NCBI RefSeq assembly: GCF_030973515.1
Contig: NZ_JARGZA010000021.1
Location: forward strand, 1-58,249
Source: Jannaschia maritima
Lineage (GTDB): Bacteria > Pseudomonadota > Alphaproteobacteria > Rhodobacterales > Rhodobacteraceae
DNA: 58,249 bases
Reading direction: 5' to 3'
Shown one piece after another: positions 16,619-39,600 of the stretch. The notes under the pieces were generated by a model. It made no database searches. It was not told where the DNA came from and saw only the letters and a list, made by a program, of their open reading frames with translations. Made by a program: the position numbers and the translations under genes. Each line of letters starts with the position of its first letter. The first letter of the stretch is position 1.

Positions 16619-17655
16619 ACATGCTGACGCGGGTGCCCCGCCGCCTCCGGTCGCGGTGGCAGCACCACCAGGAACAGCGCGCCATCCGCAACTCGCTGCG
16701 GGTGCTGCACGGGCCCGATCACGTCGATCTGGGGGCGACGGACGTGGCCGTCGTCATGCTGGGGCGGAACCTGTCCTACTACATCCGGGCCAGCCACGAG
16801 CATTACATGGCGCTGGGCGCGCGGCACCTGTTCCTGGTCGACAACGGCTCGACCGACGACACGCGCGAGATCGCCGCCACCCTGCCGCACACCACCGTGA
16901 TCCGCTCGGACGCGGACTTCCGCACGCACCAGACCGAGATGCGCCGCTATGCGGTGGAACGGTTCGTCCGGGCGGGCTGGTTCCTCGTCGTGGACGGGGA
17001 CGAGATCCTCGACTACCCGAACCGGGACCGCCTGTCGCTGCCGGGCCTGACCGGGCGGCTGAACGAGGCGGGCTGCACCGGGCTGATGGCCGCCATGCTG
17101 GAGATGGTGCCCGAAGGGCCCATCGCGACCGCCTCCGACGTGTCCTTCGCGGACGCGCTGCGGACCTATCGCCGCTGCAGCACGAACGACATAAGCACGG
17201 TCGCCTATCACGACCCCACCCATCACCTGGCGGCGTTCCTAGCCGCCAACACGCTGACCAACCCGGACGTCGTGCTGCAATACGGCGGCCTGCGCCGCAC
17301 CCTCTTCGGCGAGGATTGCGCCCTCTTCAAGCATCCGCTTTGCCGGTACGGGCCCGGCGTCGACGCCTGCTATCACCCGCACCTGTCGCTGGGCTTGCGC
17401 CTGGCGCCCTGCACGGTGCCGCTGAAGCACTACAAGTTCACCGACGACGTCGTGGCGCGCGAACGCGGGCGCCTGGCGGAGGGGCGGGCGTCGAAGGCCG
17501 TGGCGTCCGAGATGGGCAGCCGGCTCGAACGCCTCGCCAACGACCCCACCTTCGAGATGACCGTACCCGACATGCTCGAAGACCCGTCCTACGACGAGCT
17601 GCGCGCGCGCGGCTTCGTCGTCGCGGACGAGGACGGCATGGCGCTGTTCCGATGA
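16615..17655 (+). CDS. family 2-like glycosyltransferase
   Basis: 346 residues. The GT-A core is visible: DVAVVMLGRNLSYYIRAS, then HLFLVDNGSTDDTREIA (nucleotide-sugar binding) and WFLVVDGDEILDYP, a DxD-type motif. The middle and C-terminal regions include PLKHYKFTD, as in the group of surface-polysaccharide transferases that carry a degenerate GT2 domain. No signal peptide; probably cytosolic or membrane-associated. GTG 16615 overlaps the hydrolase stop by 4 nt (GTGA) with GGAGG 8 nt upstream; ATG 16621 is an alternative. Its place inside a pyrimidine-degradation operon has no obvious metabolic logic. Confidence 0.82.
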   Translation: MNMLTRVPRRLRSRWQHHQEQRAIRNSLRVLHGPDHVDLGATDVAVVMLGRNLSYYIRASHEHYMALGARHLFLVDNGSTDDTREIAATLPHTTVIRSDADFRTHQTEMRRYAVERFVRAGWFLVVDGDEILDYPNRDRLSLPGLTGRLNEAGCTGLMAAMLEMVPEGPIATASDVSFADALRTYRRCSTNDISTVAYHDPTHHLAAFLAANTLTNPDVVLQYGGLRRTLFGEDCALFKHPLCRYGPGVDACYHPHLSLGLRLAPCTVPLKHYKFTDDVVARERGRLAEGRASKAVASEMGSRLERLANDPTFEMTVPDMLEDPSYDELRARGFVVADEDGMALFR

Positions 17656-17897
17656 CCCGCGCCGCAACGGCCCTTCTGGCCGCCCTGGCGCTGGCCGCCT
17701 GCGCGCCCCCGCCCGCGGCGCTGGACCCGGCGGGCTTCGCGCCCCTGGACCACACGCCGCCCCTGGCCGCCCGCGCGCTGCTGCCCCGCGGCGTCACCGC
17801 CGACGACATGCGCATCCGGCGCAACTGCTACGCCTATGCGTTCCGGGGCGCCCTTTATCCCGTCCGCCGCCCCGACGGCGGGCAGTACTGCATCTGA
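17652..17897 (+). CDS. small predicted lipoprotein
   Basis: 81 residues. MTRAATALLAALALAAC is a lipoprotein signal ending at Cys17. The mature peptide is short, with a Pro-rich part, DDMRIRRNCYAYAF and a Cys-containing C-terminus (GGQYCI), so one disulfide is possible. No family is recognised. ATGA overlap with the glycosyltransferase stop; hydA follows 10 nt after its own stop. Confidence 0.7.
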   Translation: MTRAATALLAALALAACAPPPAALDPAGFAPLDHTPPLAARALLPRGVTADDMRIRRNCYAYAFRGALYPVRRPDGGQYCI

Positions 17898-17907
17898 AAG
17901 GTCCCCC

Positions 17908-19371
17908 ATGTCCAAGGTCATCAAGAACGGCACGGTCGTCACGGCCGACATGACGCGGCGCGCCGACGTCCTGATCGAGGGCGAGCGCATCGCCGCCATC
18001 GGCGAGGGCCTGTCGGGCGACGAGGTCATCGACGCCACCGACGCCTATGTCATTCCGGGCGGCATCGACCCCCACACGCATCTGGAGATGCCCTTCATGG
18101 GCACCACGGCGGCGGAAACGTTCGAATCCGGCACCTTCGCCGCCGCCGCGGGGGGCACCACCATGCTGGTGGACTTCTGCCTGCCGGGCGAGGACGGCAG
18201 CCTCCTCAGCGCCATCGACGCGTGGGACGCCAAGTCCCGCGACCAGATCTGCTGCGACATCTCCTATCACATGGCGATCACCGGCTGGAACGAGGGCATC
18301 TGGACCGAGATGGAGGCCGTGGTGAAGGACCGCGGCATCAACACGTTCAAGCATTTCATGGCCTACAAGGGCGCCCTGATGGTCGAGGACGACGAGATGT
18401 TCGCCTCGTTCGGGCGCTGCGCCGAGCTGGGCGCCCTGCCCCTGGTCCACGCGGAGAACGGGGACATCGTCCAGGAGCTGCAGCAGAAGTACCTGGCCCA
18501 GGGCATCACCGGCCCCGAGGGCCACGCCTATTCCCGCCCGCCGGAGGTGGAGGGCGAGGCCGCCAACCGCGCCATCATGATCGCCGACGCCGCCGGCACA
18601 CCCCTCTACATCGTCCACGTGTCATGCGAGCAGGCGCACGAGGCCATCCGCCGCGCCCGTCAGAAGGGGATGCGCGTCTATGGCGAGCCGCTGATCCAGC
18701 ACCTGACGCTGGACGAATCCGAGTACTTCGACAAGGACTGGCAATACGCGGCGCGACGGGTGATGTCCCCGCCGTTCCGGTCGAAGGAGCATCAGGACGG
18801 CCTGTGGGCCGGCCTCGCCGCAGGCAGCCTGCAGGTCGTCGCCACCGACCACGCCGCCTTCACCGACGAACAGAAGCGCATGGGTGTCGACAACTTCGCC
18901 ATGATCCCCAACGGCACGGGGGGGTTGGAGGAACGGATGGGCATGCTCTGGACGAAGGGCGTCGAAACCGGCCGCCTGACGCCGGAGGAGTTCGTGGCCG
19001 TCACGTCGACCAACATCGCCAAGATCCTCAACGTCTATCCCACGAAGGGCGCCATCCATGTGGGCGCCGATGCCGACCTCGTCGTTTGGGACCCGTCCAT
19101 CCACCGCACGGTCAGCGTCGCCAACCAGAAGTCCATCATCGACTACAACGTCTTCGAAGGCATGGAGCTGCGCGCCGCCCCCCGCTATACCCTGTCCCGT
19201 GGCGACGTCATCTGGGCGCACGGGCAGAACAGCCAGCCCCGGCCGGGACGCGGCAAGTTCGTGCGCCGCCCCCCCTTCGCCAGCACCGGCAGGGCGCTCA
19301 GCACGTGGAAGGCGCTGAACACGCCGCGCAAGATCGAGCGGGACCCGATGAACATCCCCGCGGGGGTCTAG
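17908..19371 (+). CDS. hydA: dihydropyrimidinase
   Basis: Cyclic amidohydrolase that opens dihydrouracil/dihydrothymine to N-carbamoyl-beta-amino acids; works before the ureidopropionase-type enzyme encoded at 15329. 487 residues. Metal ligands: GGIDPHTHLEMPFMG, carboxylated lysine Lys148 in TFKHFMAYKG with the adjacent substrate tyrosine, LVHAENGD, IVHVSCEQAHEA and the catalytic aspartate in ATDHAAFTDEQK. The C-terminus GKFVRRPPF is followed by TPRKIERDPMNIPAGV. ATG 17908 is set by the normal amidohydrolase N-terminus (KVIKNGTVVTAD). No dihydropyrimidine dehydrogenase (preTA) genes are seen in the window. Sequence like its last 12 codons recurs downstream at 20231 and 21390. Confidence 0.94.
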   Translation: MSKVIKNGTVVTADMTRRADVLIEGERIAAIGEGLSGDEVIDATDAYVIPGGIDPHTHLEMPFMGTTAAETFESGTFAAAAGGTTMLVDFCLPGEDGSLLSAIDAWDAKSRDQICCDISYHMAITGWNEGIWTEMEAVVKDRGINTFKHFMAYKGALMVEDDEMFASFGRCAELGALPLVHAENGDIVQELQQKYLAQGITGPEGHAYSRPPEVEGEAANRAIMIADAAGTPLYIVHVSCEQAHEAIRRARQKGMRVYGEPLIQHLTLDESEYFDKDWQYAARRVMSPPFRSKEHQDGLWAGLAAGSLQVVATDHAAFTDEQKRMGVDNFAMIPNGTGGLEERMGMLWTKGVETGRLTPEEFVAVTSTNIAKILNVYPTKGAIHVGADADLVVWDPSIHRTVSVANQKSIIDYNVFEGMELRAAPRYTLSRGDVIWAHGQNSQPRPGRGKFVRRPPFASTGRALSTWKALNTPRKIERDPMNIPAGV

Positions 19372-19374
19372 CGG
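19333..19374 (+). repeat. hydA 3'-end module, copy T1 (native)
   Basis: The terminal codons of hydA (IERDPMNIPAGV, stop TAG) and the 3-nt spacer before the methyltransferase ATG at 19375. Reference copy for T2 (20231) and T3 (21390). From its first base, the next start codon is 42 nt away. Confidence 0.7.
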
Positions 19375-20046
19375 ATGGCCGCCCTGTCCTACGTCAAGCG
19401 CATGCTCGCGACGCCGACGGGAATGAAGCTGCGCAAGCGGGCCCCGCGCTTCGTGCGACAGGGCTATCGCCTCGCCGCCCAGGTGACGGAGGCCGCCCAT
19501 CCCTCGCCCGACCTGCCGCCCGAATTGTTCGAGGGCGCGGTCTTCATGCCATCGCGCGAGGCGATCGTGGCCTCCCTGCCGAAGGGCGGCCGCGTGCTGG
19601 AGATCGGGACCGACCGCGGCACGTTCGCCGAGTTCATCCTGCGGACGGCCCAACCGGACCGCCTCCACGTGGTCGACCTCGACTATTCGCGGTTCCGCGA
19701 CGACCTGAAGGCCGACCCCCGGGTCGAGCGGCACGAGGGATTCTCCGCCGAGGTGGTGGCCCGGTTCGAGGATGCCAGCTTCGACTGGATCTACGTCGAC
19801 GGGGGCCACGACTACCCCGACGTCGTCGCCGACGCGGCGCTCGCGGCGCGCAAGGTCAAGCCCGGCGGCCACGTGATCTTCAACGACTTCGCCCATATCG
19901 ACCCGAACCTCGGCCGCTACGGCGTCCACCGCGCCGTGTCCGAGTTCCTCCTGGAACGCCGCTGGCGCATCCACGCGATCTCGTTCCACCGCAACGGTCT
20001 GTACGACCTGTCCGTGCGGGCCGAGCCGGTGGGGACGGAAGGGTGA
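19375..20046 (+). CDS. class I SAM-dependent methyltransferase
   Basis: 223 residues. Motif I is GGRVLEIGTDRGTFAEFI (about residue 63), motif II VVDLDYSRF, and the post-II segment is DWIYVDGGHDYPDVVADA, with PGGHVIFNDFAHID after it. This layout is typical of Methyltransf_24-like enzymes often associated with surface-glycan or natural-product loci; the acceptor is unknown. An N-terminal basic helix (YVKRMLATPTGMKLRKRAPR) precedes the Rossmann domain. ATG 19375 lies 3 nt after the hydA stop, so it is probably translated from the same mRNA. Confidence 0.85.
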   Translation: MAALSYVKRMLATPTGMKLRKRAPRFVRQGYRLAAQVTEAAHPSPDLPPELFEGAVFMPSREAIVASLPKGGRVLEIGTDRGTFAEFILRTAQPDRLHVVDLDYSRFRDDLKADPRVERHEGFSAEVVARFEDASFDWIYVDGGHDYPDVVADAALAARKVKPGGHVIFNDFAHIDPNLGRYGVHRAVSEFLLERRWRIHAISFHRNGLYDLSVRAEPVGTEG

Positions 20047-20185
20047 GGATGGGAGGGGCGGATGCGGACGGTGATCGGGGTGTGGATCAGCAGCGTATCA
20101 TCCGCCGAAACCCCTATGGGGGCATTTGATCGGGGGCCGCCCGTGCCATACCCGTCCGGCGCCACCGTCATTCGGATCTACCGCC

Positions 20186-20269
20186 ATGGACCATAATTCC
20201 AATCGGAATGCAGAAGATAAGTCGCGCTGGATCGAACGAAATCCGATAAACCGTCCAAGTGAGGTTTGA
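20186..20269 (+). other. 27-codon ORF ending in a hydA-tail-like module (copy T2)
   Basis: From ATG 20186 the frame reads MDHNSNRNAEDKSRW and then IERNPINRPSEV before TGA. The last 12 codons match the hydA C-terminus IERDPMNIPAGV. By hand count 27 of 45 bases from 20231 through the following start codon match the hydA copy without gaps, and the TTG of the next gene falls 42 nt from the module's first base, exactly as the ATG does after hydA. There is no good ribosome-binding site for the ORF, so it may be a relic rather than a gene. Confidence 0.45.
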
Positions 20270-20272
20270 CCG

Positions 20273-21103
20273 TTGCACGTCCGCGGTATCGACATGACGA
20301 GCGCGCCGAAGGCGTCGAAGCCGATCACGGTCTCCGAATGCGAATTCGACGGCGACGTCCTCGCACTGAAGGATTACGGAACGCTCGGGAGCGGGGACGC
20401 CTTCCTCGGCGCTCTTCGTCGGCCCGGCCCGTGGATCGCGGGGATCGATTTCCCCTTCGGACAGTCACGGACCTTCCTGGAGAATACGTCCAACGCCGAT
20501 GATTGGACGCATTACGTCGAGCGGTTCGGTCGGCTCGACCGATCCGAATGGGTTCGCTTCCTCGACGATTACAAACGGGATCGTCCGACCGGGGACAAGC
20601 AGCACAAGCGGAAGGTCGACGCGATGGCGGGTGGCGCGAGCCCGCAGACACATTCCTATACGCCCGTCGGCCTGATGTTCCATTTCGCCGCGCCGCTCCT
20701 CGTCGAAGCGGACGTGCGCATACCGGGACTGCGGGAGAGCGGGGACCCGGAGCGTGTCGTGGTCGAAGCCTATCCGGGTGTGTTGGTTCGCGATGGCATC
20801 GGCAAGGTGTCCTACAAGAACGACATGCCTGCGAAGCAGACCCCGGCGCATCGCGAGGCGAGGGAACGGATCGTCGCCTATCTCCGATCCGACGACTTCA
20901 GAAAGACATTCGACTTTACGATCGACCTGCAGGGACATGCGTCGAAGGCCGTCGAGGATCCGACCGGCGACACGATCGACGGCCTGCTTTGCGCGGCGCA
21001 GGCAGCGTGGGCCTGGAACATGAGGGACAGGAACTTCGGCTACCCGCCGGATTTCGACCGTCTCGAAGGATGGATCCCTCAACCGACGCTTCGTCGCAAC
21101 TGA
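20273..21103 (+). CDS. DUF429-like protein, predicted RNase H-like fold
   Basis: 276 residues. The N-terminal VRGIDMTSAPK and the following GPWIAGIDFPFG resemble the paired 'GIDxTSAP' and 'GIDxPxG' acidic motifs of DUF429 proteins, predicted nuclease-like members of the RNase H superfamily. VVEAYPGVLV and the C-terminal GDTIDGLLCAAQAAWAW, with another conserved Asp, support this. Activity is unproven. TTG 20273 is preferred: GTGAGG lies 8 nt upstream and the family N-terminus begins at once. Base composition is visibly less GC-rich than in neighbouring operons, as expected of accessory DNA. Confidence 0.75.
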   Translation: MHVRGIDMTSAPKASKPITVSECEFDGDVLALKDYGTLGSGDAFLGALRRPGPWIAGIDFPFGQSRTFLENTSNADDWTHYVERFGRLDRSEWVRFLDDYKRDRPTGDKQHKRKVDAMAGGASPQTHSYTPVGLMFHFAAPLLVEADVRIPGLRESGDPERVVVEAYPGVLVRDGIGKVSYKNDMPAKQTPAHREARERIVAYLRSDDFRKTFDFTIDLQGHASKAVEDPTGDTIDGLLCAAQAAWAWNMRDRNFGYPPDFDRLEGWIPQPTLRRN

Positions 21104-21308
21104 CCATCGCGACGCGATGGTTGGGGTTTCGCCCCGTTGCCTGACCCACACTTCGAATGGTGGGCATGGTGCTACGCACCCGACACCTTTGCTTAGCGGT
21201 AAGCGGGGCGGCAGGCGCTATCCCGTGCTTGCTGCGCCCGGACGCCACGTGGGCCGGTATGCATAGGGTGCAACTATACCATGTGTTATCCATCCACTGC
21301 ATCGTTAG

Positions 21309-21431
21309 ATGACGAGTATCTCTCCGACGGACTATGCAGGTTTGGCGAAGGCGCCTAGCGAGCGAAAGGTGCCAGTCACACCGCGGAACATCGAGCGAAA
21401 CCCGATGAACATTCCGGCAGGGGCACGATGA
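21309..21431 (+). other. 40-codon ORF ending in a hydA-tail-like module (copy T3)
   Basis: From ATG 21309 the frame reads MTSISPTDYAGLAKAPSERK, then VPVTPRNIERNPMNIPAGAR and TGA. The last 17 codons resemble the hydA C-terminus TPRKIERDPMNIPAGV; 29 of the 34 bases from 21390 match by hand count. The stop overlaps the ATG of the membrane-protein gene at 21428 (ATGA), so if translated it would couple to that gene. Upstream codons do not resemble hydA beyond about 30 residues. It could be a small protein or a truncated hydA end from a divergent strain. Confidence 0.45.
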
Positions 21432-21865
21432 AGAAGGAAAGCTTCGGCGAATGGCTAGCCGCATCCTGGATACTCAGCCTGCTCGCCTTTTCTCTGCTCA
21501 TCGCCATCGTCTCGCCGACGCTCGATCTATTGCGGGGCGGTCTTCGGTCTTTTGGGGAAGCGTTCGGCCAGGCGTTCATCGCGTTTTGGTTCAGTTTCTT
21601 CGGCGGGCTCTTCATCTCGATTCCCGCCCTCTTGATCGGTGGCCCCGTCGCGGGGATAGTTTGGGCCGTTCTGGAAGATGTCGAGCCACCGAAGACCCGC
21701 GCGTTCGAGCGGGGATTCTATTGCACCCTGAGCATAGGTCTCGTGCTATTCGCCGCTCAGATGTTTTGGTCCGGCCTGACAACCTATCTTATCATAGTTC
21801 TTTGCATGGGTATCATCGGACCGATGGTTTCCGTCAGTCAATCGACACCGGACGATGCGACGTAA
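21428..21865 (+). CDS. small integral membrane protein of unknown function
   Basis: 145 residues with about four hydrophobic segments: 11-30, 52-78 (containing SIPALLIGGPVAGIVWAVL), 95-112 and 117-133. The N-terminus is basic (MKKESFGEW) and the C-terminus acidic. No family is recognised. The gene uses more A/T-rich codons than the surrounding operons. Start ATG overlaps the stop of the T3 ORF. Downstream there is no gene for about 470 nt. Confidence 0.6.
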   Translation: MKKESFGEWLAASWILSLLAFSLLIAIVSPTLDLLRGGLRSFGEAFGQAFIAFWFSFFGGLFISIPALLIGGPVAGIVWAVLEDVEPPKTRAFERGFYCTLSIGLVLFAAQMFWSGLTTYLIIVLCMGIIGPMVSVSQSTPDDAT

Positions 21866-22337
21866 CGGGTGATCGCAGGGCGGGCGCCACCCTGCCTACT
21901 CTACGGACCCCTACGGATCATCCACCATACGCCCTACTGCCCCGCCCCGGGCTCGACGCGGGCCCTCCGCCCTCCACGACCGATGTCGTCGCGGCAGTTC
22001 GACGACCGATGGACCAGCAGCCGTAAGGTGGGTGAAACCCACCGCGATCCTACTCCGAAAACTGGGTATCCAAGACATGTGGTTGGATAGTCCGTCCACT
22101 GTTCGTTCTCGTACCTTCGAGATAAGTGGTTGGATCGACGATGCTGCCACCGTAGCCGCCCCGGCGCGACGACGTCGGGGAACGCGGCGTGCATGACGGG
22201 ACGGACGGCTCGACCGTTCCCGACAAGCCTGGACCCGCGCCGCCGGACGTTCCGAACGGTCCGAAGCATCCTTACGGAACGGGACAGATGTTCCGAGGGG
22301 CCGTACCGTGGGGGTGCACCCCGTGAGGCGACCTCGA
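21866..22337. other. intergenic region between the accessory genes and the nitrate operon
   Basis: 472 nt with no convincing coding sequence on either strand. It holds palindromic repeat copy A (22021-22083) and, at about 22250-22300, several GTTCCGAACG/CGGAACG-like inverted motifs of unknown meaning. The minus-strand nitrate operon ends into it (cysG stop at 22338). No T-rich intrinsic terminator was found. Confidence 0.6.
22021..22083 (+). repeat. palindromic dispersed repeat, copy A
   Basis: Starts with a hairpin (GGTGGGT-GAA-ACCCACC, 22027-22043) and ends with GGTATCCA-N4-ATGTGGT (22065-22083). An inverted copy is at 36691-36749; the first 24 bases are identical between the two. It has the look of a REP- or MITE-like element, with no transposase inside. 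Confidence 0.7.
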
Positions 22338-23699
22338 TTACGCCGCCTGGCTGTCGATGGCCCTCCGCTTCGAATGGCGCAGCAGCAGCAGGGCCGGGGC
22401 GTCGATCGGTTCGGACCCCAACGATGCCAGGTCGGTGCGGTGGAGGCGTTCGCGCCGCGTCGTGACGGCTCCGGCGATCTCCACCTCCACCGAACCGGGC
22501 AGGCCCGCGTCCCGCAGGATGGTCGCGATCTCGTCCGCCCGTCCCGCCGCCATGTAGAGCGCCAGCGTCGTCCCGGGGGATAGCATCGCGGCCCAATCGG
22601 GGTCGGCGTCGCCGAGGCGGCAGGTGCCCGTGGCGATGACCAGCCGGTCGGTTTCGCCCCGTTCTGTAAGCGGACGGCCGAGCGCCGCCGCCGCCGCCGA
22701 AGCCGCGGTGACGCCGGGAATGATCTCGCACGGGATCCCCGCGGCTTCGGCAGCGGCCATCTCTTCGCTGGCCCGGCCGAAGATGGAGGGATCGCCTGAC
22801 TTCAAGCGCACGACGCGGCGGCCCTTGCGCGCTTCGGCGACGATGGCACGGTCGATCCGTTCCTGCGGCCAGGCATGAGCGCCGGTCGCCTTTCCGGCGA
22901 AGACACGTTCTGCGTCGCGTCGCGCCAATTCCAGGACGTCCGGATCGACCAGGCGGTCGTAGAAGATGACGTCCGCCTCCTGCAGTCGCCGTACGGCGCG
23001 CATCGTCAGCAGGTCGCGCGCACCCGGTCCCGCTCCTACGAGGTCGATGCGTCCCCCCGCCTCCTCATCCGGCCCGCCCGCGCGGATCGCGGCCTTGAGC
23101 GCGGCGGCCGTCTCCCGCTCCGCGCCCGACCGGAACCGTTGCCAGGGCCCTTCCATCGCCCAAGCCCAGAAGGCGCGGCGACGGGACGGCGCGACGTGGC
23201 GGGCGACCGAGGTGCGCAGCCGCCCCGCGAGCGCGGCGAAGGCGCCGAGGCGCGGGTCGAGCATCCCTTCGATTTCCGTCTTGATGCGCCGCGCCAGGAC
23301 GGGGGCCGTCCCTTCCGTCCCGATGGCGACGACGACCGGGTCGCGGTCCACGATGGACGGCGTGGTCGCGTCGCAGAGCGCGGGGCGGTCCACGACGTTG
23401 ACGAGGGCCCCCGCCTCCTTGGCGAGCGCGTGGAGACAGGCATCCGCGCCCGGGCTGCCGGTGCAGACGAAGACGAGGGCGGCGCCTTCGAAGGCGGCGG
23501 GCGAGACGGGCCCGGTCCGATGGACGGCGCGTCCGGCGGCCACGGCGGCGGCGATCTCCTCGTCGATGGCGGGCGCGAGGATCTCGATCCGCGCCTCGGT
23601 CTTCAGCATCAGGCGCATCTTCTGCGCCGCCGCCTCGCCGCCACCGGCGATCACCACGCGGCGGCCGGACAGGGCGAGGAACATTGGAAAGGACTTCAT
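22338..23699 (-). CDS. cysG: siroheme synthase (trifunctional)
   Basis: 453 residues. The N-terminal domain is a precorrin-2 dehydrogenase/ferrochelatase with the Rossmann motif VVIAGGGEAAAQKMRLML and the dimerisation region PSRRRAFW. The C-terminal domain is uroporphyrinogen-III C-methyltransferase, with IDLVGAGPGARDLLTMRA, VIFYDRLVD, VVRLKSGDPSIFGRASEE and IIPGVTAASAAAAALGRPLT. It makes siroheme, the cofactor of the nitrite reductase NirB in the same operon. Last gene of the nitrate operon; its ATG overlaps the stop of the preceding gene by 4 nt. Confidence 0.95.
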   Translation of the reverse strand: MKSFPMFLALSGRRVVIAGGGEAAAQKMRLMLKTEARIEILAPAIDEEIAAAVAAGRAVHRTGPVSPAAFEGAALVFVCTGSPGADACLHALAKEAGALVNVVDRPALCDATTPSIVDRDPVVVAIGTEGTAPVLARRIKTEIEGMLDPRLGAFAALAGRLRTSVARHVAPSRRRAFWAWAMEGPWQRFRSGAERETAAALKAAIRAGGPDEEAGGRIDLVGAGPGARDLLTMRAVRRLQEADVIFYDRLVDPDVLELARRDAERVFAGKATGAHAWPQERIDRAIVAEARKGRRVVRLKSGDPSIFGRASEEMAAAEAAGIPCEIIPGVTAASAAAAALGRPLTERGETDRLVIATGTCRLGDADPDWAAMLSPGTTLALYMAAGRADEIATILRDAGLPGSVEVEIAGAVTTRRERLHRTDLASLGSEPIDAPALLLLRHSKRRAIDSQAA

Positions 23700-24658
23700 G
23701 CGGCCTCCGGGATCGTTCGGCCGGCCCAGAGGTCGGCCGGATCGGCGTCGAGGCCCGCCGTCTCCAGCGCGAGGGCGGCGGTGCCCAACACGACCGCCTC
23801 AGCGAACGGGTCGCGTAGCGCGCCGGACCACAGGGCCGCCAGCGCCGAAGCGCCGTGGGTGTCGTCGGCAAGGCGGCGATGCGCGTCCATCAGCGGTGGC
23901 AGGTCGCGGACGAAGGGGCCGCCGTCGCGGAGCCCGTCGATCTGGGCGGGCTTACCCGGATGACGCTCGAACTCGCCCCCGCCGCCCTTCAGGACGGTGA
24001 GGTTTGATAAACCCAGTAGGGCGGCGCTTTCCACGGCCAGCATGCGGTAGGGCGGGTGGAACACGCCCTGGACCGAAGCGTGCGCGCCCCCCGGGTTCAA
24101 GGCCCGCGCGGCTGTGTTGAGAGGAGAGCGCAAGCCCAGGACCGTACGCAGGCGCAACAGGTCCACCAAGGTCGGCAACGCAGCCTCCGCGGGAAGGTAG
24201 GCGATGCGGTCCGCGCTCAGGATCGCGGCGGCGTCCTCCATGGACCGCGCCGCGCGGATGCCGGCATGAGGTAGGGCGGCTCGCAGGTCGGCCCGCGCGC
24301 CCTGATGGCTGTTCCACCCGTGCAGCAGGACCGTGCCCCCGGCTTGCGCGACCAACCGTGCGGCCAGCAGGAACCAGGGCACACCGCGCGTCCGCCCGGC
24401 GGCATAGCTTGGCCAATCCAGCAGCGGTGCTGGACCGGGCCAGTCTGGTAGGGCGGCCCGCAGGCCCCGCGTCAGGCCCGCGACCTCTTCCGCGCTTTCG
24501 CTTCGGTAGCGCATCAGCATCAGGAGCGCGCCCACGGCCTCGGGCTCCGCCGCGCCGGAGAGGATGAGGCGCATGGCGTCCTCCGCCTCGGCCTGCGCCA
24601 GATGGCGCGACCGGCCGGGCCCCCGGGCGAGGGCGGCGACATAGGGCGCGAGGCTCAT
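23696..24658 (-). CDS. anthranilate phosphoribosyltransferase-like protein (TrpD2/glycosyltransferase family 3)
   Basis: 320 residues with the TrpD fold. The N-terminal helical part is LAQAEAEDAMRLILSGAAEP with ALLMLMRYRSESAEE. The phosphoribosyl-binding part shows VLLHGWNSHQG, LGLRSPLNTAARALNP and LTVLKGGGGEFERHPGKP. The diphosphate loop of true TrpD (usually KHGNR...) is replaced by LHGWNSHQG, so anthranilate transfer is unlikely; TrpD2-type relatives have no settled enzymatic role and some bind nucleic acid. Coupled by 4-nt overlaps both to nasA upstream and cysG downstream, so it belongs to the nitrate operon, but what it does there is unknown. Confidence 0.78.
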   Translation of the reverse strand: MSLAPYVAALARGPGRSRHLAQAEAEDAMRLILSGAAEPEAVGALLMLMRYRSESAEEVAGLTRGLRAALPDWPGPAPLLDWPSYAAGRTRGVPWFLLAARLVAQAGGTVLLHGWNSHQGARADLRAALPHAGIRAARSMEDAAAILSADRIAYLPAEAALPTLVDLLRLRTVLGLRSPLNTAARALNPGGAHASVQGVFHPPYRMLAVESAALLGLSNLTVLKGGGGEFERHPGKPAQIDGLRDGGPFVRDLPPLMDAHRRLADDTHGASALAALWSGALRDPFAEAVVLGTAALALETAGLDADPADLWAGRTIPEAA

Positions 24659-27252
24659 TCCGCGGCCTCCAGGGGGGCGTGCGCGGCGAGGATGGCGGCG
24701 ATCTCGGGGCGGCAGGAGCCGCAGGCGGTGCCCGCGCCCGTCGCCGCGCCGATGCCTTCGACCTCGCGCGCGCCGCAGGCCGCGATGGTGTTCGCGCCCA
24801 CACCCAGGCAGGCGCATACGGTGGGGCCGGGATCGGGCCGGGCGCCGGCCGGACGCCCGGCGAGGGGGCTGTCCTCGGTCCCCAGGAGGGCCGCGACGTG
24901 TCCGCGCTGCACCGCGACTGGGCCGGGCGCAACGAAGAGCGCGCCGGCCAGGAGGCCGTCCAGGCGGTAGGCGAGGCGATGACGGCCCGACGCGGCGTCG
25001 CGCACCTGCGACAGGTCCGCGGCCGCGACGCCCAGGACGCGGCGCGCCAGGACGTCCCAGTCGGCCACGGGGGCGGTGCCAGCCATCTCGACCTGCCAGC
25101 CCGCCTCGGTCCGAGCCCTGGCCCAGTAGGTGCCTGGGAGCGCATCGAGGTCGGGCCTTCGCAGGGAGACGGCGTAGGCGAACCACGCGGCGGGCCAGGC
25201 CCGGACCTCCACGCGCGCGGATTTCGATGCGGGCTGGCCCGAGACGGGGTCGGTCGTGGCCGGCACCAGGCGGGAGATGCAGGCCTGCGCAGCCGTCTCG
25301 GCGGACCAGTGGATCGGGGCGAAGGCGTCGCCGGGCCGCACCCGGTCTGTCACCAGCGCGCGCAGGAGCGCCGTGCCGCCATGTCCTGCGACCTCGATCA
25401 CGGAGGCGGGCGCGATGCCGTGCGCGGCGGCGTCCGCGGGGTGCAGCTCCAGGTAGGGTTCGGCGATATGGGCCGAGAGCCTCGCCGCGGCGCCCGTGCG
25501 GGTCATGGTGTGCCATTGGTCGCGCACCCGGCCTGTGTTAAGGCGCAGGCCGCGGGCCTCGGGCGCGGCGGGGGCGCGGACCGGCACCATGCGTGCGCGT
25601 CCGTCGGGGGTGAAGAACCGGCCGTCGCCGAAGAACCGGCCGCCCCGGCGCGCCGCCGTCACCGGCCAGCGGACCGGGGCCAGCGCGTCGTATTCGGCGT
25701 CCGAGACGTCGCGGAGGCCTGAGATGTCGAAGTCCGATCCGAGCGATGCGGCGATGCCCGAGAGGGCGGCATGCTCGCGGAAGATCTCCGCCGGGCCGGC
25801 ATAGTCGAAGGCGGGTCCGTGCCCCAGCCGCGTGGCTAGGTCGGCGAAGATCGCCCAGTCGGCCCGCGCCTCCCCCGGCGGCGGCAGCACCGTGCGCTGG
25901 CGCGAGATGCAGCGTTCGGAGTTCGTGACGGTCCCATCCTTCTCTCCCCAGCCGAGGGCGGGCAGCAGGACATGCGCCAACCGGGCCGTATCCGTGCAGG
26001 CGGTCACGTCCTGGACGACGACCAGGGGACAGGCCGCCAGCGCTGCGCGGACCCTACCGCTGCCGGGCAAGCTGACGGCCGGGTTCGTGCACGCGATCCA
26101 GATCGCCTTGATCCGCCCGTCGGCCACGCGCTCGAACATCTCGACCGCCTTCGGCCCATCGGCCTGCGGCATCGCGGGCGCGTTCCAGAAGGCTTGGACC
26201 GCGGCACGGTGCGCGGGGTCCGTCAGCGATAGATGGCAGGCCAGGGTATTGGCCAGGCCCCCCACTTCGCGCCCCCCCATCGCGTTCGGCTGACCCGTGA
26301 CGGAGAAGGGTCCGCAACCGGGCCGCCCGATCCGCCCGGTGGCCAGGTGGCAGTTGATGATGGCCGACACCGTGTCGGTCCCCTGCTCGGACTGGTTCAC
26401 GCCCTGGCTGAAGACGGTCACGACCTTCTCCGTTCGGGTCCACAGGCGCAGGAACGCGGCGAGGTCCGGGGGCGTCAGACCCGTCCGGTCCGGCCCCACG
26501 CGCGCCGCGTCCAGCGCGGCGTCGAAGCCCCCGACATGGGCCAGGATCCATTCGGCGTCCACGGCACCGTTTTCGTGCAGATGGGCCAGAAGGCGGTTGA
26601 ACAGCGCCGCATCGCCGCCGGGCGCGATCCGCAGGTCCAGGTCCGCGATCTCCGACGTCGCCGTCCGGCGCGGGTCGATGTTGACCACGCGCATGTCCGG
26701 CCGCGCATCCCGCGCCGCGCGCAGGCGCTGGAACAGGACCGGATGGCACCAGGCGAGGTTCGAGCCCACCAGCACCACCAGGTCCGCCTGCTCCAGATCG
26801 TCGTATTGCCCCGGCACCGTGTCGGTCCCGAAGGCGCGTCTGTGTCCCGCGACCGTCGACGCCATGCACAGACGGCTGTTGGTGTCGATGTTCGCCGTGC
26901 CCACGAAGCCCTTCGCCAGTTTGTTGACGACGTAGTAATCCTCCGTCAGCAACTGCCCGGACACGTAGAAGGCCACCGCGTCCGGCCCATACTCCGCAAT
27001 GGTGCGGGCGAAGCCGCCCGCCGCCCGGTCCATTGCGGCGTCCCACGACGCGCGGCGACCGTCCACGACGGGGTGCAGGAGCCGGTCCTCCAGCCCGACC
27101 GTCTCGCCCAGGGCGGCGCCCTTGGAACAGAGCCGTCCGTGGTTGGCCGGATGGTCGGTGTCCCCCGAGACGGCCAACCCGTCCGGTCCCGGCTCGGCCA
27201 CCACGCCGCAGCCGACGCCGCAATAGGCGCAGGTGGTGCGGATCCCCGTCAC
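24655..27252 (-). CDS. nasA: assimilatory nitrate reductase catalytic subunit
   Basis: Molybdopterin enzyme reducing nitrate to nitrite in the cytoplasm. 865 residues. N-terminal [4Fe-4S] site TCAYCGVGCGV (Cys8, Cys11, Cys15) with the fourth cysteine in GRLCSKGA (Cys42). Mo-bis-MGD domains follow, with NIDTNSRLCMAS (the conserved Cys region), VVLVGSNLAWCHPVL and GREVGGLAN, and a C-terminal cofactor domain (LNTGRVRDQWHTMTRTG). An extra C-terminal BFD-like [2Fe-2S] module is present at about 812-860 (VCACLGVG ... GTACGSCRPE), probably for electron entry. GTG 27252 overlaps the nirD stop by 4 nt (GTGA) and places the first cysteine at the usual distance from the start. Confidence 0.94.
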   Translation of the reverse strand: MTGIRTTCAYCGVGCGVVAEPGPDGLAVSGDTDHPANHGRLCSKGAALGETVGLEDRLLHPVVDGRRASWDAAMDRAAGGFARTIAEYGPDAVAFYVSGQLLTEDYYVVNKLAKGFVGTANIDTNSRLCMASTVAGHRRAFGTDTVPGQYDDLEQADLVVLVGSNLAWCHPVLFQRLRAARDARPDMRVVNIDPRRTATSEIADLDLRIAPGGDAALFNRLLAHLHENGAVDAEWILAHVGGFDAALDAARVGPDRTGLTPPDLAAFLRLWTRTEKVVTVFSQGVNQSEQGTDTVSAIINCHLATGRIGRPGCGPFSVTGQPNAMGGREVGGLANTLACHLSLTDPAHRAAVQAFWNAPAMPQADGPKAVEMFERVADGRIKAIWIACTNPAVSLPGSGRVRAALAACPLVVVQDVTACTDTARLAHVLLPALGWGEKDGTVTNSERCISRQRTVLPPPGEARADWAIFADLATRLGHGPAFDYAGPAEIFREHAALSGIAASLGSDFDISGLRDVSDAEYDALAPVRWPVTAARRGGRFFGDGRFFTPDGRARMVPVRAPAAPEARGLRLNTGRVRDQWHTMTRTGAAARLSAHIAEPYLELHPADAAAHGIAPASVIEVAGHGGTALLRALVTDRVRPGDAFAPIHWSAETAAQACISRLVPATTDPVSGQPASKSARVEVRAWPAAWFAYAVSLRRPDLDALPGTYWARARTEAGWQVEMAGTAPVADWDVLARRVLGVAAADLSQVRDAASGRHRLAYRLDGLLAGALFVAPGPVAVQRGHVAALLGTEDSPLAGRPAGARPDPGPTVCACLGVGANTIAACGAREVEGIGAATGAGTACGSCRPEIAAILAAHAPLEAAE

Positions 27253-27581
27253 GCCGCGCTCGCGCGGGCGAGGCGGCTGGCGTCGATCAGGATGCGCCCG
27301 CCCTCGACGCGGCAGGGATAGGTGGGCACCGTCCCCTCGTCCGCGCCCATGGCGCGTCCGGTGTTCAGGTCGAACACCCAGTTGTGCAGCGGACAGGTGA
27401 CCGACTGGCCGTGGACGATGCCTTCGGACAGGGGCCCGCCCTTGTGCGGGCATCGGTCGTCCAGCGCGTAGACGTCGTCCCCGCCGGTGCGGAAGACGGC
27501 GACGCAGCCCTGCGCCGTCGTCAGCTTCCGGGCCCCGCGGGCGGGGATCTCGTCCAGCGCCGCGATGTCGATCCAGTTCAT
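27249..27581 (-). CDS. nirD: nitrite reductase (NADH) small subunit
   Basis: 110-residue Rieske-type partner of NirB. Cluster ligands are visible as CPHKGGPLSEG (Cys44, His46) and CPLHNW (Cys63, His66), followed by TYPCRVEGGRILID. The intact Rieske ligands mark this as a cluster-binding form, unlike enterobacterial NirD where they are missing. ATGA overlap with nirB upstream and GTGA overlap with nasA downstream. Confidence 0.93.
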   Translation of the reverse strand: MNWIDIAALDEIPARGARKLTTAQGCVAVFRTGGDDVYALDDRCPHKGGPLSEGIVHGQSVTCPLHNWVFDLNTGRAMGADEGTVPTYPCRVEGGRILIDASRLARASAA

Positions 27582-30004
27582 TCGGCGGCCTCCAGGGCGA
27601 GGGACGCGACCGGACGGTAGCGTTCGGCCTGCGCCGCCGCGTGCCGCGCCCAGGGGTCGTGGCGATAGACCGATTGCGACAGCTCGAACCGATCGACGAG
27701 CGCCCGCCGCTCATCCGGGTCCTCGATCTGCGCGCGCACCCAGTCCATCCCGACCTTGGCCAGCCACTTGTAAATGCGGTCGAGATACTTGGCGTTTTCG
27801 CGGTAGACCTGGATCACCGCCTTGATTACCTGGATCGTCTCTGCCTCCGTAGGGACCTGAATCAGAAACTCCGTCTCCTTGACGTCCATGCCCGCGGCCC
27901 CGCCGATCGAGACTTGGTAGCCGCTGTCGACGCAGACCACGCCGATGTCCTTGCACGTCGCCTCCGCGCAGTTGCGCGGGCAGCCGGACACGCCGAGCTT
28001 GAGCTTGTGGGGCGTCCAGGATCCGTGGAGCGTCTTCTCCAGCGCGATGCCCAGACCCGTAGAATCCTGCGTCCCGAACCGGCAATGGTCGGTTCCAACG
28101 CACGTCTTCACCGTCCGCAGCCCCTTGGAATAGGCGTAGCCCGAAACCATTCCCGCTTCGTTCAGGTCGCGCCAGATCGCGGGCAGATCCTCGCCCCGCA
28201 CGCCCAGGAGGTCGATGCGTTGGCCACCCGTCACCTTCACGGTGGGGACGTGGTACTTGTCGGCGGCGTCCGCGATGGCGCGGAGTTCGTCGGGCGTCGT
28301 GACCCCGCCCCACATCCGTGGCACGACGCTGAACGTGCCGTCCTCCTGGATGTTGGCGTGTTTGCGTTCGTTGATGAAGCGGCTCTGCGGGTCGTCGGCG
28401 TAGTCCAGCGGCCAGTCGGCCAGCAGGTAGAAGTTCAGGGCGGGGCGGCACGTATGGCAGCCGTCCACGGTCTTCCAGCCCAGTTCTTGCCAGACGGCCG
28501 GCATGGTCTTGAGCGCCTGCGACTTGATGAGCCGCCGCACCTCCTCGTGGGTGAGGTCGGTGCAGCCGCAGACGGGCTGCACGGCGGGCGCCGCCGCCCC
28601 CGTCTGCGCGGCGATCAGCTGCTCGACGAGCCCCGTGCAGGTGCCGCAGGACGCGCTAGCCTTGGTGTTGGCCCGCACGCCGCCCAGGTCGACGGCGCCG
28701 CCCTCGATGGCCGCCACGATGGTTCCCTTGCAAACGCCGTTGCAACCGCAGATCTCCGCATCATCCGGCAAGGCTGCAACGGCCGCCATAGGGTCCGCTT
28801 GGCCCCCCCCCTGATAGGCCGGTCCGAAAATCAGGGTCTCGCGCATATCGGTGATGTCGGTCCGGTCTTTGATAAGCTGGAAGAACCAGGCGCTGTCGGC
28901 GGTGTCGCCATACATCACCGCGCCCACCACGCGGTCCTGCTGCAGCACCAAGCGCCGGTACACCCCGCGCGACGGGTCGCGCAGGACGATGTCCTCGCGC
29001 CCTTCGCCCTCCGCGAAGTCGCCCGCGCTGAACAGGTCGCAGCCGGTCACCTTCAGCTTGGTGGACAGCTCCTTGGGGACGAAGGCCGCGTCCTCGCCGG
29101 TCAGCGTCGCCGCCACGACCTTGGCCTGGTCGTAGAGCGGCGCGACAAGACCGAAGAGCGCGCCGTCGTGCTCCACGCATTCGCCCACCGCCAGCACGTC
29201 CGCGTCGGACGTGACCATGCGGTCGTCCACCTGGATGCCCCGGCCCACCGCCAGCCCAGCACGCTTCGCGACCGCGACGTTGGGGCGGATCCCCACCGCC
29301 ATCACGAGGAGGTCGCAAGCCAGCTCGGTCCCGTCGTCGAGCATCAGCGCGCGGACATGGCCGCCGTCGCCGAGGATCTCCGTGGAATTGGCCGAGCAGC
29401 GCACCGTGATGCCCTTCTCCACCAGCGCCTTGCGCAGCAGGTAGCCCGCCGCCTCGTCCAACTGCCGTTCCATCAGGTGCGGGTTTATGTGGATGACGGT
29501 GACGTCGGCGCCGCGCGCGGCCATGCCCGCCGCCGCCTCGAGGCCCAGGAGCCCCCCGCCGATGACGACGACGCGGCGGCCCGCGCCCATCGCCATCATC
29601 CGTTCCGTGTCCTCCAGGTCCCGGTAGGCGATCACGCCGTCGAGGTCGTGGCCGGGCAGGGGGATCATGAACGGGTCGGAGCCGGTCCCGATCAGCAGCT
29701 TGTCGTAGGCCACGACGTCGCCGGTCTCGGACGTGACGGTCTTGGCTGCCCGGTCCACCGACGCGACGCGCGTGCCGAACCGGCACTCCACGCCATGCGC
29801 CTCGTACCAAGCGGCGTCGTGGATCACGATGTCCTCGTAGGCCTTCTCGCCCGACAGGACGGGGGAAAGCATGATGCGGTCATAGTTGCCGCGGGGTTCG
29901 GCGTTGAAGAGCGTGACGGACCATCGGCCCGGCTCGCGTTCGAACAGATGTTCCAGGGCGCGGCCCGTGGCCATGCCCGCGCCGACGACGACGAGTCGCT
30001 TCAT
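27578..30004 (-). CDS. nirB: nitrite reductase (NADH) large subunit
   Basis: 808 residues; reduces nitrite to ammonium in the cytoplasm with NADH. N-terminal FAD domain (LVVVGAGMATGRALEHL) and NAD domain (VVVIGGGLLGLEAAAGMA), then a BFD-like [2Fe-2S] region with CGCNGVCKG (about 420) and ASCGTCTGLVEQL. The C-terminal nitrite/sulfite reductase half binds siroheme and [4Fe-4S], seen as GTDHCRFGTQDSTGLG (about 640) and GVSGCPRNCAEATCKDIGV. Length is normal. Siroheme would come from CysG at the end of the operon. ATG 30004 overlaps the preceding transporter gene stop. Confidence 0.96.
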   Translation of the reverse strand: MKRLVVVGAGMATGRALEHLFEREPGRWSVTLFNAEPRGNYDRIMLSPVLSGEKAYEDIVIHDAAWYEAHGVECRFGTRVASVDRAAKTVTSETGDVVAYDKLLIGTGSDPFMIPLPGHDLDGVIAYRDLEDTERMMAMGAGRRVVVIGGGLLGLEAAAGMAARGADVTVIHINPHLMERQLDEAAGYLLRKALVEKGITVRCSANSTEILGDGGHVRALMLDDGTELACDLLVMAVGIRPNVAVAKRAGLAVGRGIQVDDRMVTSDADVLAVGECVEHDGALFGLVAPLYDQAKVVAATLTGEDAAFVPKELSTKLKVTGCDLFSAGDFAEGEGREDIVLRDPSRGVYRRLVLQQDRVVGAVMYGDTADSAWFFQLIKDRTDITDMRETLIFGPAYQGGGQADPMAAVAALPDDAEICGCNGVCKGTIVAAIEGGAVDLGGVRANTKASASCGTCTGLVEQLIAAQTGAAAPAVQPVCGCTDLTHEEVRRLIKSQALKTMPAVWQELGWKTVDGCHTCRPALNFYLLADWPLDYADDPQSRFINERKHANIQEDGTFSVVPRMWGGVTTPDELRAIADAADKYHVPTVKVTGGQRIDLLGVRGEDLPAIWRDLNEAGMVSGYAYSKGLRTVKTCVGTDHCRFGTQDSTGLGIALEKTLHGSWTPHKLKLGVSGCPRNCAEATCKDIGVVCVDSGYQVSIGGAAGMDVKETEFLIQVPTEAETIQVIKAVIQVYRENAKYLDRIYKWLAKVGMDWVRAQIEDPDERRALVDRFELSQSVYRHDPWARHAAAQAERYRPVASLALEAAE

Positions 30005-36690: not shown

Positions 36691-36749
36691 ACCACATATT
36701 CTGGATACCCCGAAAACTTAGGCGTCGGTGGGTTTCACCCACCTTACGG
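36691..36749 (-). repeat. palindromic dispersed repeat, copy B (inverted relative to copy A)
   Basis: On the plus strand ACCACAT-N4-TGGATACC (36691-36709) is followed by the hairpin end at 36726-36749, whose complement is identical to the first 24 bases of copy A at 22021. The two copies face each other across the nitrate operon. Confidence 0.7.
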
Positions 36750-36979
36750 CACCGGATCTCGGCCATCCCGACGCGATGCTATCCGACGTCGAACCGTCCG
36801 ATCCGCACGGCGGCACCCCCGAACACCGCGCCCGACCCGAACCCGTCCGCCGCGATGCGCACGGCCCGGCACGGCCCCGGATCGTGGCCGGAACACGACG
36901 CACCTTTCCGCACCTGCGCGGACGCTGCCGGCAACGGTGGCGCCGTGGCGCCAAAGCCCGCCGCGAACCGAGCGCGGCG

Positions 36980-38396: not shown

Positions 38397-38840
38397 ATGA
38401 CCGCCGACGCCCTCTTCGCTTCCCCGTTCTGGACCGCGATCGCCCTCGCGGCGCTGACCTACGACAACGCGATCCTGACCTACGCCATCCTCACCTGGCC
38501 GGAGGCCGCCACGATCGGACAGGCCCTGTGGAAGGTCGCGGCCTCCCTCCCCTGGCTCCTCACCCTCGCGACCCCCTTCGCCATCCTGTTCGGCCTCGCC
38601 GGCGGCTGGATCGCGCGGCGCGCCTTCGCCGCCACCCGCCACCGGGGCCGCGCCGTCGCTTCGCTGATCGCCCTCGCCGCGTTCCTCGTCCCCGCCGCCC
38701 TGCTGACGGAAACGGCACTGGCGTGGCGCGACGGCTGGCAGGCGCCGCGCTTCGCGTTGCAGGTTGCGGGCGGCGCCCTAATCGCCATTGTGGCGGCGGC
38801 GCTGCTGGACTGGAAGGACCCGCATGGACACCGTCGTTGA
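38397..38840 (+). CDS. small integral membrane protein, first gene of the ABC operon
   Basis: 147 residues with about four hydrophobic segments: 10-33, 50-70, 85-105 and 120-138. No family is recognised. Its last 17 nt overlap the beginning of the ATPase gene, and its C-terminus DWKDPHGHRR is encoded across the ribosome-binding site (GGAAGGA) of that gene. Its position suggests an accessory membrane component or simple cotranscription. ATG 38397 is used; ATG 38392 is out of frame. Confidence 0.65.
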   Translation: MTADALFASPFWTAIALAALTYDNAILTYAILTWPEAATIGQALWKVAASLPWLLTLATPFAILFGLAGGWIARRAFAATRHRGRAVASLIALAAFLVPAALLTETALAWRDGWQAPRFALQVAGGALIAIVAAALLDWKDPHGHRR

Positions 38841-39600
38841 GGCAACCGGCCTGGACCTGACCTTCCGCACCGCGGACGGCCCCGTCCACGCCCTGCGCGA
38901 CGTCGGCCTGTCCGTGGCGCCGGGCGAGTTCGTCAGCTTCATCGGCCCGTCGGGCTGCGGCAAGACCACCTTCCTGCGCTGCGTCGCCGCCCTCGAAACG
39001 CCCACCGGCGGCACCCTGACCGTGAACGGCATGACCCCGGACGAGGCTCGCCGCGCCCGCGCCTACGGCTACGTCTTCCAGGCCGCGGGGCTCTATCCCT
39101 GGCGCACGATCGAGCGGAACATCACCTTGCCGCTCGAGATCATGGGCTTCCCGCGGGCGGAGCGTCGCGAACGCGCCGCCAAGGCGCTGGACCTGGTCGA
39201 GCTGTCGGGCTTCGCGGGCAAGCATCCCTGGCAATTGTCGGGCGGCATGCAGCAGCGCGCGTCCATCGCGCGCGCCTTGGCCTTCGACGCGGACCTGCTG
39301 CTCATGGACGAACCCTTCGGCGCCCTGGACGAGATCGTGCGCGACCGCCTGAACGAGGAGCTCTTGCGCCTCTGGGACCGGACCGCGAAGACGATCCTGT
39401 TCGTCACCCATTCGATCCCCGAGGCCGTGTACCTGTCCACGAAGATCGTCGTGATGTCCCCGCGCCCGGGCCGCATCACCGACGTCATCGACAGCCCCCT
39501 GCCGCGCGACCGCCCCCTCGACATCCGCGACACGCCCGAGTTCCTGGCGGTCGCCCACCGTGTCCGCGAAGGCCTGCGCGACGGGGTGGAGGCGGCATGA
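38824..39600 (+). CDS. ABC transporter ATP-binding protein (nitrate/taurine/pyrimidine family)
   Basis: 258 residues of the SsuB/TauB/ThiZ-like group. Walker A IGPSGCGKTTFLR (about 40), Q-loop VFQAAGLYPWRTI, signature QLSGGMQQR, Walker B LLLMDEPFGALDEI and H-loop FVTHSIPEA. The last part, SPRPGRITDVIDSPLPRDR, is typical for this group. It energises the two permeases encoded at 40374 and 41369. Context with hydA (17908) and the binding protein (42329) suggests uptake of a pyrimidine or a pyrimidine-derived compound, but the substrate is inferred. Confidence 0.9.
   Translation: MDTVVEATGLDLTFRTADGPVHALRDVGLSVAPGEFVSFIGPSGCGKTTFLRCVAALETPTGGTLTVNGMTPDEARRARAYGYVFQAAGLYPWRTIERNITLPLEIMGFPRAERRERAAKALDLVELSGFAGKHPWQLSGGMQQRASIARALAFDADLLLMDEPFGALDEIVRDRLNEELLRLWDRTAKTILFVTHSIPEAVYLSTKIVVMSPRPGRITDVIDSPLPRDRPLDIRDTPEFLAVAHRVREGLRDGVEAA

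Follow-up and report, generated by a model that had tools for sequence, protein, structure and literature searches.

Why do the last codons of a conserved metabolic gene recur further downstream, each time in front of an unrelated gene? The question is raised by a stretch of 58,249 nucleotides from Jannaschia maritima (contig NZ_JARGZA010000021.1), the whole of which is called the window here. It carries an intact amidohydrolase gene of the dihydropyrimidinase/hydantoinase type, which we take to be hydA as in the original prediction, followed by three accessory genes (cargo) and, much further on, by the gene of an ATP-binding cassette (ABC) transporter ATPase (Table 1). The native hydA 3' end (T1) has two look-alikes, T2 and T3, before the second and the third cargo gene. 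The coordinates and hand counts of the original prediction, which pointed out these copies, are exact (27 of 45 bases shared by T1 and T2, 29 of 34 by T1 and T3), with the start codon of the next gene 42 (T1), 42 (T2) and 38 (T3) nt from the first base. Comparisons with related genomes showed that, in marine Jannaschia bacteria, unrelated genes have been swapped in repeatedly at the end of hydA, a gene of pyrimidine degradation. On balance, the hydA/ABC-ATPase junction is probably a gene-capture site that operates without an integrase, combining homologous exchange in the flanks, rare half-illegitimate stacking of genes and retention of the hydA end as a ribosome-binding site.

Table 1. Features of the hydA region and their positions in the window
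Feature	Position	Strand	Remarks
hydA-like amidohydrolase gene, intact	17908..19371	+	Pfam Amidohydro_1, 3.8e-25
T1, native hydA 3' end	19333..19371	+	
Cargo 1, methyltransferase gene	19375..20046	+	Pfam Methyltransf_24, 9.1e-17; starts 3 nt past the hydA stop codon
T2, 27-codon mini-ORF ending in a degraded hydA 3' end	20186..20269	+	similarity firm at 20230-20266, likely from ~20198
Cargo 2, DUF429-like gene, TTG start	20273..21103	+	3 nt past the T2 stop codon
T3, 40-codon mini-ORF ending in a hydA 3' end	21309..21431	+	similarity at ~21330-21425; stop codon (TGA) shares bases with the ATG of cargo 3
Cargo 3, small membrane-protein gene	21428..21865	+	membrane nature read from sequence; overlaps the T3 mini-ORF (ATGA)
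ABC-transporter ATPase gene, usual hydA neighbour	38824..39600	+	~19.5 kb from hydA; Walker and signature motifs read from sequence

Both copies form the 3' ends of in-frame mini-open reading frames (mini-ORFs), a point absent from the original prediction; the T2 mini-ORF stops just before the DUF429-like gene and the T3 mini-ORF runs into the start of the membrane-protein gene. The degenerate pattern I-E-[RS]-[ND]-P-[IM]-N has exactly three matches in the 3.67-Mb genome, at the places of T1, T2 and T3, and its reversal has none. A profile built from 19 genus hydA ends was scanned over both strands of the 20 kb downstream (39,640 positions). T3 (55-58 bits) and T2 (20-25 bits) ranked first and second, followed by places of at most 15.6 bits; both copies exceed the local background. 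The best-scoring suffix of T3 is 49 nt long and its similarity holds to about position -96, the score of the stretch from -96 to -37 being reached by about one in 39,900 background positions, T3 itself included. The best-scoring suffix of T2 is 37 nt long; its similarity only likely extends to about -69, because 1.5% of the background reaches its score over the same stretch.

Scanning of 99 hydA loci with the profile gave 55.0 bits for T3, 33.4 bits for one scar in a second Jannaschia species (congener G395, locus L051) and 24.1 bits for T2. Each of the three scars abuts a gene start, which the L051 scar overlaps as TGATG. Other places scoring at least 20 bits are found in L067 (24.9, minus strand), L127 (22.5, minus strand) and L085 (20.4), none of them seen at a hydA-adjacent junction (among the best 40 of 82 matches). 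No scar was found in 34 further loci, where the best score (20.5, in L188) lies inside other sequence. For T2, as opposed to T3, chance resemblance has to be considered. Its raw identity is weak, an unrelated minus-strand place in the window reaching 28 of 45 bases against T1, and the place in L067 is the one among 1.66 million positions of the 99 loci that outscores it. Raw identity is thus insufficient, and the case for T2 rests on its second rank within its own locus, on the strand and stop position that it shares with T1, and on the gene start that it abuts at 3 nt; a chance resemblance is improbable. The scars might also be the remains of whole tandem hydA copies that once stood between the cargo genes and decayed to the ends beside each gene, and some family genomes do have two hydA matches (e.g. 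G001, G010, G184). However, the profile score drops upstream of about -33 (L051), -69 (T2) and -96 (T3), and the mini-ORFs lie only 139 nt (T2) and 205 nt (T3) from the preceding gene, which makes such decay improbable.

Across the genus, hydA itself is constant and the DNA behind it is not. The gene was found in 18 of 19 congeners (G401 gave short, weak matches only), in which its last ~470 bp are 79-84% identical, and the HydA protein is 75-88% identical across 80 other-genus loci. The C-terminus (TPRKIER.P.NIPAG.) is conserved in the genus, and the DNA past the stop codon differs in almost every species. The ABC-ATPase gene follows 0.43-2.3 kb past hydA in 17 of the 18 congeners (none in the stretch examined in L050); the distance is 1674 nt in J. 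formosa. Of 113 loci outside the genus, 76 have less than 250 nt between the two genes and 29 have 250 nt or more, with no ABC gene found in 8; the compact arrangement is therefore probably ancestral. In 12 of 19 genus loci, a predicted cargo open reading frame (ORF) begins no more than 14 nt from the first base of the hydA stop codon, and the ABC gene starts within 14 nt past the stop in 7 of the 76 cargo-free loci outside the genus. Comparison of two loci, L048 and L049, shows the boundaries of the variable part: they are 89% identical over 4.2 kb downstream and their cargo is completely different. As far as the hydA stop they agree at 87-100%, over the 300 nt inside each boundary at only 10-43%, and once the ABC gene begins again at 83-100%.

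The genus cargo is mostly a single, species-variable gene that often touches the hydA stop, the ABC start or both, and it encodes glyoxalase-like, HEPN-like, HNH, NYN, membrane or unknown proteins. Its GC content goes down to 0.40 (0.68 in the window hydA). Glyoxalase-like cargo of mutual similarity is present in three species, in one of them fused to a weak DUF4760 match. In this fusion, which is found in L056 (G398, 43-1002 past the hydA stop), a DUF4760-like segment of weak score (E 0.0019) continues in frame into the glyoxalase. In other species the glyoxalase occurs unfused, and a lone DUF4760 gene lies behind hydA in L066. HEPN-like cargo occupies the same site in three species (L055, L058, L065; 28-32% identical, two of the Pfam matches below cut-off). 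The cargo stretches of L053, L057, L062 and L064 hold short, antisense or no ORFs only. A reading of the HEPN-, HNH- and NYN-like cargo as a defence island is not claimed here, since the PADLOC matches of eight proteins were weak, the best (2.8e-8) being that of the window methyltransferase.

Evidence for recombination comes from hydA itself. Nearest-neighbour switching along the gene suggested mosaicism, and the pairwise homoplasy index (PHI) test, run with our own script, was used in its place; among congeners it gave 0 of 500 permutations at both window sizes. Recombination between strains with different genes downstream of hydA, one of two explanations originally offered, agrees with the recombinant hydA, the gene content that varies between species and the second species with the same kind of scar. 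As in known arrays of displaced 3' ends, hydA is a homologous anchor followed by different genes, and truncated anchor ends (T2, T3 and the L051 scar) stand before accessory genes. Exchange of cargo would proceed for the most part through homologous recombination within the genes on either side. Occasionally, one end of the incoming DNA would pair with its homologue and the other end would join illegitimately, in which case a cargo gene is added, not replaced. The added or pushed-back gene would keep between 33 and perhaps 96 nt from the end of the hydA once fused to it, and T2, T3 and the L051 scar may be relics of such fusions. The relics would persist as the cargo's ribosome-binding site and stop-start overlap, both presumably supplied by the final codons of hydA (GGCGGGGGTT-TGATG in many congeners), so cargo would be well translated only with that end attached. 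The GC content of the window cargo falls from the methyltransferase (0.70) through the DUF429-like gene (0.63) to the membrane-protein gene (0.57), and T3 resembles hydA more than T2 does. This points to the distal gene as the most recent arrival, contrary to simple push-back, although the GC values may instead reflect the donors. A gene transfer agent is a possible vehicle by analogy with Jannaschia aquimarina, for which a complete one is reported (PMC4408345).

The other explanation originally offered, serial insertion of cassettes that each bring their own version of the hydA end, stands in one part: cargo does accumulate behind hydA together with such ends. The integrative-element version of it fared differently. 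A site-specific integrase or trans-acting recombinase whose attachment site is the hydA 3' end, with each insertion duplicating that end, would fit the way in which DNA is inserted at the end of a conserved gene without disrupting it, and the repeated order of hydA end, cargo, hydA end and cargo. However, such an element should leave a hydA-end copy before the displaced ABC gene, and none was found in the 48 loci where 250 nt or more separate hydA from the ABC gene (best 8.9 bits, compared with 24-55 bits for the scars); this version is therefore unsupported. There is also no long exact core, the longest exact run between T1 and T3 being 13 bases, and the scar lengths differ. Pfam searches detected no recombinase in 20 cargo proteins or in the window's three; the predicted cargo ORFs number 80 in total, some of them spurious, and of the window's 19.5-kb gap the searches covered the smaller part. 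Taken with its points in favour, a site-specific element is very improbable.

Retention of the hydA end would depend on what it offers to a gene behind it. The G-rich GCGGGGGTC in T1 is a Shine-Dalgarno-like sequence for the gene next downstream. In the genus, the hydA end is typically GGGGGTN, and its mean pairing energy with the anti-Shine-Dalgarno sequence is -9.8 kcal/mol, compared with -5.6 in the 80 other-genus loci. The mean at 24 cargo starts is -8.1 kcal/mol vs. -3.4 inside hydA, and 5.8% of the control positions reach the cargo mean; five loci with ORFs judged antisense or spurious (L053, L082, L086, L127 and L136) were left out of this count. Beyond Jannaschia, too, pairing of the hydA end is stronger where cargo is present (-6.2, n=29) than where the ABC gene follows directly (-5.0, n=76; P=0.011), and cargo is found in 14 of 28 such loci with Val as the last HydA residue, 15 of 74 with Ile and 0 of 3 with Leu; this link is suggestive only, because the loci are related. 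More tentatively, the last hydA codons may be a portable translation-start module, based on a strong Shine-Dalgarno-like sequence within the Jannaschia hydA coding region, and genes captured at this integrase-free junction may move on only with the hydA end as a mini-ORF leader. The mini-ORFs could instead be functional leader peptides or regulatory upstream ORFs retained for their peptide. Each of the two frames has an ATG start, runs uninterrupted to the next gene and retains IERNP.N.P; when the last 36 nt are compared with the genus consensus, T3 differs mostly at third codon positions (4 of 6) and the L051 scar has none of its 10 differences at second positions. However, T2 shows little bias (5 of 11 at third positions), the cases are only three, chance keeps short ORFs open, and a donor hydA can also yield a third-position bias. 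Retention for the peptide thus appears unlikely.

Several observations weigh against a capture site defined by the hydA end. Extra DNA is also frequent upstream of hydA, where the junction spans 250 nt or more in 53 of 110 loci, compared with 34 of 110 for the downstream junction, so the hydA end is not the only permissive junction. No scar of the upstream gene's end was seen, however, in 116 loci (some counted twice) in an identity scan of 4 kb of the plus strand, simpler than the profile; its best match, 23 of 36, occurs at unrelated places. Scars are present in two genomes only, and they pair less well with the anti-Shine-Dalgarno sequence (T2 -7.4, T3 -6.2, L051 -5.5 kcal/mol) than T1 does (-9.8). 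The PHI signal of the ABC gene is weak (53 of 500 permutations with w=100 and 2 of 500 with w=50). The expectation that relatives carry the DUF429-like or the membrane-protein gene behind hydA was not borne out: a search of 98 other hydA loci, in which each species is represented by a single genome, found none of the window's three cargo proteins and no donor genome.

The origin of the scars also appears mixed. Over 36 nt, T2 shares 28 and 27 positions with hydA ends of two other genera and 22 with its own, T3 matches congeners at 31 and its own at 29, and the L051 scar has its own hydA as the nearest (28). Over 51 nt, the differences shrink: for T2 one congener ties with the two other genera (35 each, own 31), T3 reaches 41 vs. 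39 for its own, and the L051 scar 31 for its own with a best of 32 (L100). The predicted better match of relatives' hydA ends holds for T2 and slightly for T3 over the shorter length, and is less marked over the longer one. Judged from these alignments, T2 looks foreign and the L051 scar looks like the species' own.

The window cargo is sparsely distributed. The methyltransferase has only partial matches in the 19 congeners (best 2.7e-14). The DUF429-like protein (Pfam DUF429 2.3e-4, 21.4 bits, below the cut-off of 23) has its gene in 10 of 394 family genomes, this one included, and in none of the 19 congeners; its plasmid matches are nine Sinorhizobium records of 37-46% identity. The membrane protein matches no Pfam family at 0.01, and its sole match among 248 family genomes is itself. 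Next to its gene, ~200 bp (22120-22319) have a counterpart of 94% identity on contig C41 of the same genome (L037), and ~104 bp of them resemble, at 77%, a stretch of C3 close to a transposase-like ORF (L045, named from reading); the segment is possibly a mobile-element relic. An identical 25-bp repeat is found inverted at 22020-22044 and 36726-36750, with similar short matches elsewhere in the genome and in some congeners. Between hydA and the ABC gene, the minus strand carries siroheme-synthase-like and nitrate/nitrite-reductase-like genes (22338-30004, names read from ORFs). On the other side of hydA, two extra genes, glycosyltransferase-like and small lipoprotein-like (names from reading), lie between it and the upstream amidohydrolase gene (16619-17907). 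Promoter- and terminator-like sites in 19300-22330 number 2 and 2, compared with 0.6 and 1.6 in shuffles, and are not used as support; an Rfam gathering scan of 19000-22400 found nothing.

Integron cassettes enter one gene at a time at a fixed site, and earlier arrivals are shifted back. The hydA cargo resembles them in consisting of single genes that would be added and pushed back behind a fixed site. It differs in that the cargo scanned contained no integrase (neither attC nor intI was searched for) and that its genes are joined to their neighbours by codon overlaps. A model of the same kind as that favoured here has been published for the orphan immunity-gene arrays of the Vibrio cholerae type VI secretion system (T6SS; Kirchberger et al. 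2017, PMC5361080), which are likewise compared with integron cassettes there. In both models, a conserved upstream region is the homologous anchor, the non-homologous end is illegitimately joined and the older downstream gene is shifted back. However, the upstream gene of the T6SS arrays is a variable toxin effector, whereas hydA is a conserved metabolic enzyme gene with a constant end and cargo unrelated to it. Rhs genes with displaced C-termini share the constant 5' part and variable downstream part (Jackson et al. 2009, PMC2935791) and the orphaned 3' regions in a row (PMC5361080), whereas the HydA C-terminus is nearly invariable and variability begins at the hydA stop codon. No published report of a hydA insertion site is among the papers listed, which are a subset of those retrieved.

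The findings bear on the question of how foreign genes that arrive without their own signals are expressed. The end of a conserved enzyme gene appears to supply a ribosome-binding site for any gene arriving behind it. If the last hydA codons do act as a portable module, any gene with its start codon on the hydA stop would be expressed with the catabolic operon. The scars would be records of single acquisition events, and the order and direction of capture are testable by strain sequencing. If true, gene rows with displaced ends would not be limited to toxin-immunity loci.

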